Source of the DNA: Salipaludibacillus sp. LMS25
GTDB taxonomy: Bacteria > Bacillota > Bacilli > Bacillales > Salisediminibacteriaceae
DNA: 64,000 bases
Assembly (NCBI RefSeq): GCF_024362805.1
Contig: NZ_CP093299.1
Coordinates: 1,240,001 to 1,304,000 of the forward strand
Direction: 5' to 3'
The notes under the pieces were generated by a model, which saw only the letters and a program-made list of their open reading frames with translations, was not told the DNA's origin and did no database searches. Position 1 is the stretch's first letter. Each line of letters begins with the position of its first letter. The position numbers and the translations under genes were made by a program. Of this stretch, positions 38,156 to 42,717 are shown in pieces.

Positions 38156-39034
38156 TTACACAGGGAATAGTTCCTTAATATTCGCTTTAATAATTTCCAC
38201 ATATTCATCATTATCCATAATTTCAAAAGTTAATTGCGCTTTATATAAATGAGTTCCCGACTTCTTTAATTGTTTCATATAAAAACAGTTCATACCAGCT
38301 TGAAAATGCAGTTCTCCTAATAAATATAAACTTTCAAGTTGAGTGCACAGTCGAATTCCCTTTTGAGCATAAGCAAATGAATCGCGGTGTCTCCCAAGCA
38401 ACGTTAACGATTTTGTTAACCCGTAATAAATCCTAATTTTCGTTAAATCCATTTTCTTTTGACATTTATGCATTTCTCCTAGTGCCCGCTCATAATATTG
38501 AACAGAAAGAGTCAGCTCCCCCTCTTCATTGAAAATAATTCCGATACTATTGAGTATCTCAATTTCCGTTGCTGAATAAGGAGTTTTCGCCTTTGAACGT
38601 GTTAAATGTAAAGATTTTAACAGAACATCAAGAGATCTACGAAAGCCTTTCTTTAGATAATAACCTGAAATCCCTTCATGCCACATTAAAAATTGCTGAT
38701 GCTCAAGAGATGAAAAAACAGCATTTCTTTTTTCACTCTTTACTATATCATAAACTGTCCGATAGTCTTTTAATCTTATAGCTTTCCGCAGTTCATTCTT
38801 CACCTCGTTAATATAATCAAATCGTTGATTATGGGCCATATTAAAGAAATCATTAATATCAATCTCTAGCTTTTTAGCTATTTGGTAGAGCGTCGTACTT
38901 AATGGAACCACTTCTCCTTTTTCGATCCGACTAATTTGTGCTTGAGAGCAAATACCTTCAGCCAAGTCTGTCTGTGACATACCTGCTTTTTCTCTGTACA
39001 TCTTTATATTTTCGCCGATCAACTCATAATTCAT
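38156..39034 (-). CDS. PlcR/NprR-like quorum-sensing regulator (XRE HTH plus TPR)
   Basis: 292 residues. N-terminal XRE helix-turn-helix (about 5-62: IKMYREKAGMSQTDLAEGICSQAQISRIEKG), then a helical TPR region to the end (for example ILNSIGIIFNEEGELTLSVQYYERAL). Length, layout and the SxAQISRIEKGxxxP stretch match PlcR (285 residues) of the B. cereus group, an RRNPP-family regulator that binds a short exported-and-reimported peptide. The ATG follows AGGAGGG at 8 nt. The divergent gene at 39257 encodes a small exported peptide with PapR-like layout, strong context for this reading. Target genes and binding site unknown; no PlcR-box (TATGNAN4TNCATA) is visible here. Confidence 0.88.
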   Translation of the reverse strand: MNYELIGENIKMYREKAGMSQTDLAEGICSQAQISRIEKGEVVPLSTTLYQIAKKLEIDINDFFNMAHNQRFDYINEVKNELRKAIRLKDYRTVYDIVKSEKRNAVFSSLEHQQFLMWHEGISGYYLKKGFRRSLDVLLKSLHLTRSKAKTPYSATEIEILNSIGIIFNEEGELTLSVQYYERALGEMHKCQKKMDLTKIRIYYGLTKSLTLLGRHRDSFAYAQKGIRLCTQLESLYLLGELHFQAGMNCFYMKQLKKSGTHLYKAQLTFEIMDNDEYVEIIKANIKELFPV

Positions 39035-39093
39035 TGTCGTTTCCCTCCTAATCCTTAATTAAATGAGAACGAAACGTTATAAAACGACTCTTC

Positions 39094-39186
39094 AATTAGG
39101 CACGTCAGTTATCTCCCGCCTAAATAGAATTTATCTCTCCTCTCTATTTTGAGGTGGAAGTTTTAAGGACGATTATCTGTGATAAA
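39094..39186 (+). repeat. Type B structured repeat, copy 4 (no left hairpin)
   Basis: AATTAGGCACGTCAGTTATC, inner arms CCCGCCTAAATAGA / TCTCTATTTTGAGG, and the terminal GATTATCTGTGATAAA. It lies between the divergent regulator and peptide genes, ending 71 nt upstream of the peptide start, so it sits within their shared promoter region. Confidence 0.75.
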
Positions 39187-39256
39187 TAGAGGCATTTTCA
39201 ACAAACTGGAAAATTGTAGGGTGAAACAATTAAATTATATAAAGGGGGTGACATTA

Positions 39257-39385
39257 ATGAAAAAATATTTTATGGTGTTAAGTGTCGTAACGATACTAGT
39301 TGGTGGAATCGTTTCATTTAGTGGAGGAGACGCCTTTGCGATAAGAGATTTACCTAACCAGCATAGTGTACCAGATTCCTTTTAA
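39257..39385 (+). CDS. Small exported peptide, candidate PapR-like signal precursor
   Basis: 42 codons starting at ATG 39257 behind GGGGGTG (6 nt). The product is a Lys-Lys start, a hydrophobic core to about residue 22, a signal peptidase site after DAFA (residue 28), and a 14-residue mature part, IRDLPNQHSVPDSF. The last seven residues, HSVPDSF, align with the PapR heptapeptide ADLPFEF of B. cereus (Leu/Val-Pro-x-x-Phe end). It is divergent from the PlcR-like gene and followed by a terminator. That it is the peptide ligand of this regulator is inference; a small secreted peptide of other function is possible. Confidence 0.75.
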   Translation: MKKYFMVLSVVTILVGGIVSFSGGDAFAIRDLPNQHSVPDSF

Positions 39386-39402
39386 GTTTAAAAATCAGTG
39401 GG

Positions 39403-39437
39403 GTCAAAGCTTACTTAGCTTTGACTTCTTTTCTTTT
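39403..39437 (+). terminator. Terminator of the small peptide gene
   Basis: GTCAAAGC / GCTTTGAC stem with a 6-nt loop, followed by TTCTTTTCTTTT, 18 nt after the stop codon. Confidence 0.85.
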
Positions 39438-40288: not shown

Positions 40289-40438
40289 TCAAACGATGAT
40301 AGCTTTACCTTGAATTTCAAAAACGGCGCCCTCTGACATTGAATGGACTTGTTCAGTTTCAGCAACTCCCCAAGATGATGCACAAACTGTAAACGCTAAC
40401 ACACCTAAAATAATCGAATTGCTAACTATTTTTTTCAT
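40289..40438 (-). CDS. Phr-like signalling peptide precursor
   Basis: 49 residues: MKKIVSNSIILGVLAFTVCA begins an export signal with probable cleavage near SSWGVA/ETE, leaving a mature tail ending EIQGKAIIV. The ATG overlaps the rap stop by 4 nt (ATGA) with GGGGGAGGTGATC as ribosome binding site, the arrangement typical of rap-phr cassettes. Phr pro-peptides are exported, trimmed to 5-6 residues and reimported by Opp to inhibit the partner Rap. Which residues form the active peptide cannot be read from sequence; the C-terminal GKAIIV is one candidate. Confidence 0.8.
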   Translation of the reverse strand: MKKIVSNSIILGVLAFTVCASSWGVAETEQVHSMSEGAVFEIQGKAIIV

Positions 40439-41562
40439 ATGATCACCTCCCCCATTTTGACGATTTCTACTTTTGCTTGATGGGCTCTTTTCAAATACAT
40501 AGACGCCTTCTCAAAACAACCTTTTTCCTCAAAATAGCACCCAATATTGTAAGAAATCTCTACAATATCTGTCCAAAGGTTTAATTTTTCTAACTCTGCT
40601 AACCCTGCATTAATTAATGGTAAGGAATCAAATCGATATACGGCATGCAATAATTTAAATTTAGTCATGTATTCCTTGTTTTTTTCATTGTACGCTCTAT
40701 CAAAACCCTTTTCAAAAAACTGTAAGGCGATCTCTTTACTATCATCTTGATATAATGAATAGGTTAATTCATATAAGGTTTCTACACCAAAAAATGAGTC
40801 ATTATGTTCAGGAATACTAAGTGACATTTTAAAATGATCAACAGCAAGATCGAATTCTTTTTGCTTTTGATAACATAACCCTAAATTGTGGTGTGCCATA
40901 CCTAATGTGATCGGAAAAGCCATTTTTTCAGCTTTTTTTAAGACTCTATAATAAAAAACTTTCGCCTTATCATAATCATCTAAATCAACTAAATTAGCGG
41001 CTAATAACATTTCAGAATTTAAAGCTTTTTCTGCATAATTTCCATAGCATTTAAAAATGTTTAATGCTTTCTCTCCGTGCGTTATTGAAAAGAAATGTTG
41101 ATCGATACGATAAAAAGCATTTCCTAACTGATAATGAAATTCAGCTTTTTCAATATCATCACAAATAAACTTCAATTTATCTTCAGCAGATTGATAATAT
41201 TTAACTGCTTTTATATAATTTCTATTATAAAATTCATGTTGCCCACCAAAAAAATAGAAATAGTATTGAATCATATCTTCTGTTCTATCATAGCTTTCTT
41301 TTTCGAGCTTATTAAAAATTTCAGTCGTCTCATTTAAATTTTTAAGCATTATTTTATGACGAAAATCTAACAGAGTAAAATAAATAATTAAATTTTGATT
41401 TTTTTCCATAAACGGCAAAGATTCTTCGATTTCACGCTTCATTTTTATAGCTTTATTAACCTTGTTCTGTCTAATCGCGTTATACCATTCATTGAGCATT
41501 TCGGCTACGTTTTCTGATGCTATTTCTTCTATCAAAATCCCGTCATCCTCTCTCCTCAACAT
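40435..41562 (-). CDS. Rap-family protein (response regulator phosphatase or regulator)
   Basis: 375 residues, all-helical: N-terminal three-helix bundle (about 18-75) and TPR domain to the end (SITHGEKALNIFK, GMAHHNLGLCYQKQKEFDLAVDHFKMSL). The segment NEWYNAIRQNKV...MEKNQNLIIYFTLLDFRHKIML is characteristic of Rap proteins. Gln56 in MEKNQ becomes residue 47 if translation starts at TTG 41535, matching the Gln47 of RapH used to dephosphorylate Spo0F. AGGAGAGAGG lies before that TTG, while the ATG at 41562 has only a weak site, so the start is uncertain. Likely acts on Spo0F or a response regulator; coupled with the Phr-like gene. Confidence 0.9.
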   Translation of the reverse strand: MLRREDDGILIEEIASENVAEMLNEWYNAIRQNKVNKAIKMKREIEESLPFMEKNQNLIIYFTLLDFRHKIMLKNLNETTEIFNKLEKESYDRTEDMIQYYFYFFGGQHEFYNRNYIKAVKYYQSAEDKLKFICDDIEKAEFHYQLGNAFYRIDQHFFSITHGEKALNIFKCYGNYAEKALNSEMLLAANLVDLDDYDKAKVFYYRVLKKAEKMAFPITLGMAHHNLGLCYQKQKEFDLAVDHFKMSLSIPEHNDSFFGVETLYELTYSLYQDDSKEIALQFFEKGFDRAYNEKNKEYMTKFKLLHAVYRFDSLPLINAGLAELEKLNLWTDIVEISYNIGCYFEEKGCFEKASMYLKRAHQAKVEIVKMGEVII

Positions 41563-42213: not shown

Positions 42214-42717
42214 TTATTTCCAAAAGGTAATGGGATTGTGTTTTAAACTGTCCGGTTCTTTTTTCTGCCTTAAATACTGAAATCGACAGAACATATATAC
42301 TCCAATGACTACTGCCATACTTAACTCTTCTAGAATCATAACAATTATGTGTTCAAAGTAGCGGAGAATGGGTGCTTTTGTGTCCGTGTCAGTCATGGCC
42401 GGTAATTGATACGGATAGACATTTTGCCAATGGTTATTAGAATTCGCGACTGCCTTACTGCTTCCAGTATGCACATGTACGTCTCCCTGTCTGTTAATAA
42501 CCACTGTTTCACGACTGTTCTCCTGCCAATGTTCAAAAGAAGGGTCACCATACACATCTTGTCTGTTGCTCATTGTCTTTAACTCACTTTCGCTGTCAGC
42601 CTGTAACAAAGGGTCCTGAAATCTCACCGAATGAACATCTGGAATGTAAGTGGTCACCTTGAACACATACAATGACACAAACAATACCCCGACGAACACC
42701 GACAGCCTTTTGGCCAT
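42214..42717 (-). CDS. Hypothetical membrane protein with two terminal membrane segments
   Basis: Not recognised. 167 residues with a membrane segment about 6-25, a roughly 95-residue polar and probably extracellular middle part (many Asp, Asn, Ser; VVINRQGDVHVHTGSSKAV), and a second membrane segment about 127-148 followed by a basic cytoplasmic tail. The ATG follows AAGGAGG. Clean terminator downstream, no operon partners. No Cys or catalytic motif visible. Confidence 0.75.
   Translation of the reverse strand: MAKRLSVFVGVLFVSLYVFKVTTYIPDVHSVRFQDPLLQADSESELKTMSNRQDVYGDPSFEHWQENSRETVVINRQGDVHVHTGSSKAVANSNNHWQNVYPYQLPAMTDTDTKAPILRYFEHIIVMILEELSMAVVIGVYMFCRFQYLRQKKEPDSLKHNPITFWK

Follow-up and report, generated by a model that had tools for sequence, protein, structure and literature searches.

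A divergently transcribed regulator-propeptide pair of likely PlcR type in Salipaludibacillus, with a candidate pheromone inside the propeptide

Does a regulator encoded back to back with a gene of 42 codons have that gene's product as its pheromone, and if so, which residues carry the signal? The questions are raised by a locus of Salipaludibacillus sp. LMS25, a salt- and alkali-loving bacterium, lying in a stretch of 64,000 nucleotides (the window; contig NZ_CP093299.1, positions 1,240,001 to 1,304,000, forward strand) to which all coordinates below refer. A sequence-only reading had proposed here a 292-residue XRE-TPR (tetratricopeptide repeat) regulator of PlcR layout and, divergent from it, a 42-codon open reading frame (ORF) whose product ends in HSVPDSF. 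Both are present, the regulator gene at 38156-39034 on the minus strand and the small gene at 39257-39385 on the plus strand. The two genes are likely to form an RRNPP pair of the PlcR subfamily in the wide sense, as a variant in which the propeptide gene is divergent, and the pheromone is probably DLPNQH, inside the peptide, rather than the peptide's very end.

The regulator joins an N-terminal helix-turn-helix (HTH) domain to a C-terminal TPR domain, the layout by which the PlcR subfamily is recognized, with Pfam scores of 49.7 bits for HTH_3 (cut-off 23) and 80.3 bits for RNPP_C (cut-off 26.5). Its best relative with a solved structure is PlcR, and its structure model, matched to PlcR, predicts the PlcR fold; below PlcR, a VIA-align comparison of the model returns mainly generic TPR and Rap proteins and is uninformative on function. 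Domain layout and fold are thus shared with PlcR of the Bacillus cereus group, as are Lys89 and Tyr275 (PlcR numbering), while the two proteins are 28% identical and Asn201 and Gln237 of PlcR are replaced here by Gly and Glu, respectively. Lys89, Gln237 and Tyr275 are reported as the contacts of the PapR glutamate (PMC6568020), and two of this set are therefore retained, Gln237 being the one replaced. A minus-strand ribosome-binding site, AGGAGG (39044-39049), is aligned among the orthologs of the regulator gene.

The small gene has the properties of a genuine coding sequence. Its ATG follows by 8 bases the strong ribosome-binding site GGGGG (39244-39248, plus strand), which is AAAGGGGGT or AAAGGAGGT in 7/7 orthologs, and a 68-residue reading from a GTG at 39179 was rejected because an ATG or GTG start behind the G-rich site is aligned in all seven. 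The ratio of nonsynonymous to synonymous polymorphism (pN/pS) over all pairs of the seven orthologs is 0.257, and the frame therefore evolves as a gene. When the 520 bases preceding the regulator gene were dinucleotide-shuffled 1000 times, a qualifying small ORF arose by chance twice. The wider comparison covers 397 genomes drawn from the order, with at most six candidates per genome scored and further loci taken by rank among the matches listed; the 155 loci examined hold 159 unique regulators, from which 111 pairs were kept (L063, L124, L060 and L015 looking doubtful) and 48 regulators dropped, including L022, L040 and L042, where looser rules give divergent candidates. Across the regulators examined, a qualifying small upstream ORF is present in 84/156 real regions against 6/1560 shuffles, and one with a P-containing core in 73/156 against 0/1560. 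The 42-residue product matches no family in Pfam or NCBIfam; it starts with KK and a hydrophobic core and has A-F-A at residues 26-28, so residues 1-28 (39257-39340, plus strand) resemble a signal sequence, and export is predicted from this residue pattern alone. A terminator-like hairpin and a T-rich run follow the gene (39400-39428, plus strand), weak evidence by itself, since the hairpin scan of 2.3 kb gave 1 site where shuffles predict 1.1.

Regulator and peptide gene also travel together. Both are present in seven of the eight Salipaludibacillus genomes, the window's own counted, both are missing from the eighth (G004), and their orientation is divergent in 7/7 orthologs, which bears out the expectation that the pair would be conserved in relatives. 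Regulator matches at E <= 0.001 occur in 49 of 60 relatives and reach at least 68% identity only in those seven genomes, and a single peptide match in G030 (E 0.007, within a 351-residue frame) was judged to be chance. The conservation of an adjacent small propeptide gene with its receptor is a further mark of the PlcR subfamily.

Within the peptide, residues 31-36, DLPNQH (39347-39364, plus strand), are invariant in 7/7 orthologs despite varying codons. By segment, pN/pS is 0.028 for residues 30-36, compared with 0.32 for the signal part and 0.28 for the tail, and (R)DLPNQH is under strong selection. For the tail, residues 37-42 (39365-39382, plus strand), three orthologs have SVPDSF, while SVPDQG, SVPDFQ and SVPNFQ occur once each; the seventh ortholog, G007, has no tail, and its propeptide terminates precisely at DLPNQH. 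Six residues thus follow DLPNQH in 6/7 orthologs, which would place a DLPNQH pheromone away from the extreme C terminus in these, with G007 fitting a C-terminal position. Moreover, 12 distant PlcR-like regulators (36-45% identical) adjoin propeptides that end in LPNQH (L008, L066, L067, L068, L070, L071, L073, L074, L076, L077, L141 and L160); five of these pairs are divergent, and in seven the propeptide gene follows the regulator gene on its own strand. Since DLPNQH is invariant with low pN/pS, the tail is variable or absent in G007, and the 12 distant pairs end in LPNQH, the alignment of HSVPDSF with PapR ADLPFEF that had first been proposed is probably off register by six residues, and it is DLPNQH that would match DLPFEF of PapR. 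Literature searches with the strings LPNQH, DLPNQH and ELPPIH gave no match, and searches on the pair likewise found nothing about it.

The receptors offer a possible counterpart to this core. LPNQH stands beside PlcR-type receptors in 19 pairs from 10 genera and 8 families (by group codes). Among the 98 of the 111 pairs with a readable core, to which the comparison of core residues applies, position 201 is Gly in 18 and Ser in 1 of the 19 LPNQH pairs, and Asn in 68 of the 79 others. The link between LPNQH and Gly/Ser201 is a lead, not proof.

Several results weigh against DLPNQH as the internal signal of a PlcR-like system. The tail residues SVP are kept in all six orthologs that have a tail, and trimming alone leaves this unexplained. 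DLPNQH was assigned to the window clade by rule, and in four orthologs the automatic rule took SVPDSF or SVPDQG, since these also fit the loose core pattern. In a 112-row tree that leaves out columns 87, 89 and 201, the covariation at position 201 comes down to about three independent contrasts on supported branches (p 0.5), of which on average 1.8 agree, 1.2 show no difference and almost none oppose. A single clade of LPNQH receptors is rejected (p-AU, approximately unbiased test, 2.2e-59; 16 LPNQH rows of 50 chosen), and LPNQH would therefore be ancestral with losses or have multiple origins. As a further difference from PlcR, the PlcR box TATGNAN4TNCATA is found at no more than one mismatch in none of the seven window-clade intergenic regions, the regions examined for this, and at two mismatches in one; the window's own region has four mismatches, and a sister-clade operator matrix scores all seven under the 95% null level.

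The alternative that holds up best is a propeptide with two signals, namely DLPNQH and, as its diverged copy, SVPDSF, each perhaps serving a different receptor. The two stretches are alike in pattern, sister propeptides have tandem cores such as ELPPQH-SIAK-ELPPQH (L117), and PlcR-subfamily propeptides with dissimilar copies are described in PMC9765709; however, G007 lacks the second stretch, the end of which varies in the other orthologs, and the spacers behind internal cores in sister propeptides often start with S, which would make the tail perhaps a mere spacer, so that two signals seem unlikely. S is the most frequent residue after internal cores (19 of 38 listed cases, of which 6 are from the genus and some others are near-copies). 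Given this and the precedent of PapRa7, an internal active peptide discussed below, the tail resembles the remnant of a spacer or a second copy that has decayed. Tandem cores were seen in the propeptides of L151, L106, L075, L131, L155 and L117, with, for example, about seven copies of ELPPIHM or five of ELPPVH.

A pheromone formed by the C-terminal HSVPDSF, recognized in the way that PlcR recognizes the end of PapR, is less probable still. The mature PapR signal is reported to be its C terminus (PMC4147580), SVPDSF is compatible with the loose core pattern x-[LV]-P-x-x-[HYF], and SVP is retained in all six tail-bearing orthologs; against this stand the missing tail of G007, whose regulator is nonetheless 68% identical, the changes in the final two residues (SF, QG, FQ), a tail pN/pS tenfold that of DLPNQH, and the LPNQH ends of the twelve distant pairs. 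That the peptide is genuine and secreted yet the regulator senses something else is highly improbable, for although the same genome encodes another PlcR-like regulator, itself paired with a divergent propeptide, and 48/159 PlcR-like regulators are without a filter-passing one, co-occurrence in the genus is strict, adjacency is kept and other families show the same peptide-receptor signature.

With DLPNQH as the probable internal pheromone, a pathway can be drawn by analogy with the family. The 42-residue propeptide would be exported via its N-terminal signal and cleaved after residue 28 to give about IRDLPNQHSVPDSF, from which the tail SVPDSF would be trimmed off. DLPNQH, perhaps together with one or two preceding residues, would then be imported by an oligopeptide permease and bind the five-TPR groove of the divergent regulator, and the regulator dimer would in turn alter its DNA binding and thereby gene expression.

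The divergent layout had been noted as different from that of the B. cereus group, in which papR follows plcR at a distance of 70 bp (PMC4147580), but it is the commonest arrangement among the 111 pairs: 82 propeptide genes are upstream and divergent, whereas 15 follow the regulator gene on its own strand and 14 follow it on the opposite strand. The branch with PlcR of B. cereus has a support of 99 and long branches, and comprises, besides PlcR, seven divergent rows and one doubtful row. The majority of PlcR-like pairs found in the order are thus divergent, contrary to the generalization in PMC9765709 that puts the pheromone gene immediately downstream in Bacillales systems, PlcR among them; this is relevant to automatic searches.

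Beyond layout, the pair resembles PlcR/PapR in having a small, exported-looking propeptide beside the regulator and a core that starts with DLP (DLPFEF in PapR), and differs in the tail behind the core. In the PlcRa/PapRa system of Bacillus cereus, papRa is reported to precede plcRa, and the active peptide, PapRa7 (CSIPYEY), to be an internal stretch (PMC3519770), so that both the upstream peptide gene and the proposed non-C-terminal core are shared, a difference being in length (93 residues in PapRa, 42 here). The RRNPP_detector and FoldTree candidates (PMC10075063; PMC12700828) share an HTH-TPR receptor with a small secreted peptide on either side; gene orientation is mapped in figures of both papers, and pairs like that of Salipaludibacillus may already be within their data sets. 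A literature search combining Salipaludibacillus and quorum sensing matched one protease review and nothing on the pair.

The intergenic region between the two genes (39035-39256) measures 222 bp, about 120 bp more than the approximately 87-101 bp of six orthologs. Exact gapped inverted repeats, compared with shuffles, revealed no convincing shared operator in the window clade, where one 5-base arm pair occurs, at the near-identical loci G002 and G003 only. PlcR boxes at no more than one mismatch are not enriched in the other divergent regions (2/63, with 1.2 expected) and occur in one of seven regions on the PlcR side of the tree (L049, one mismatch; 0.08 expected). At other divergent PlcR-like loci an inverted repeat of 22 bp, AAATAT-k-CCTAnAgTTATATTT, precedes the start of the regulator gene by 11-27 bp. 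It is present with no more than one mismatch in the arms at 39/82 loci (20 distinct sequences) and with exact arms at 23/63 loci, where none of 20 shuffled sets gave more than 3; it is probably the operator of these loci, judging from sequence, and is strongly conserved at L087, L093, L101, L104, L106, L122, L134 and others. In seven other genomes the repeat matched the pair's own promoter at 0-1 mismatch, and a second site (1-2 mismatches) recurs in five of them, next to the gene of a 418-residue HTH protein in 3/3 cases inspected; the remaining two-mismatch sites do not exceed the control level.

Genes around the pair, encoding a histidine kinase, a Bmp protein, PutP, a 167-residue protein, a second symporter and Ppc, are largely retained in the genus with single losses. 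The 167-residue protein (42214-42717, minus strand) belongs to no known family, stands beside the pair in 7/7 genus loci with about 26-27% identity in four, and is a possible target or partner of the pair. Also next to the pair is a Rap-like gene (RapH_N, TPRs; 40289-41562, minus strand) that overlaps a 49-codon Phr-like ORF; the stretches compared from six relatives (one a short contig) show no Rap match at this site, and copies occur elsewhere in the same genome (83% identical) and in two relatives (54-55%). The second PlcR-like regulator of this genome (L037, C1:1712000-1724000) has a divergent propeptide ending in APPRYTHG, and a genus relative carries an extra PlcR-like gene (L049), which the tree puts on the side of B. 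cereus PlcR and which stands divergent from a propeptide gene whose product ends in DLPHEF.

Taken together, the data point to a likely PlcR-type signalling pair beyond the B. cereus group, in the genus Salipaludibacillus, and correct the choice of peptide residues worth synthesizing. The pairing of LPNQH with Gly/Ser201 would amount to a simple, testable rule of peptide specificity. It is conceivable, though doubtful, that LPNQH is a pheromone word common to the Bacillales by which different species could hear each other, masked in Salipaludibacillus by a tail that needs removal; if so, removal of the tail would add a second step of processing, at which the signal could be gated.
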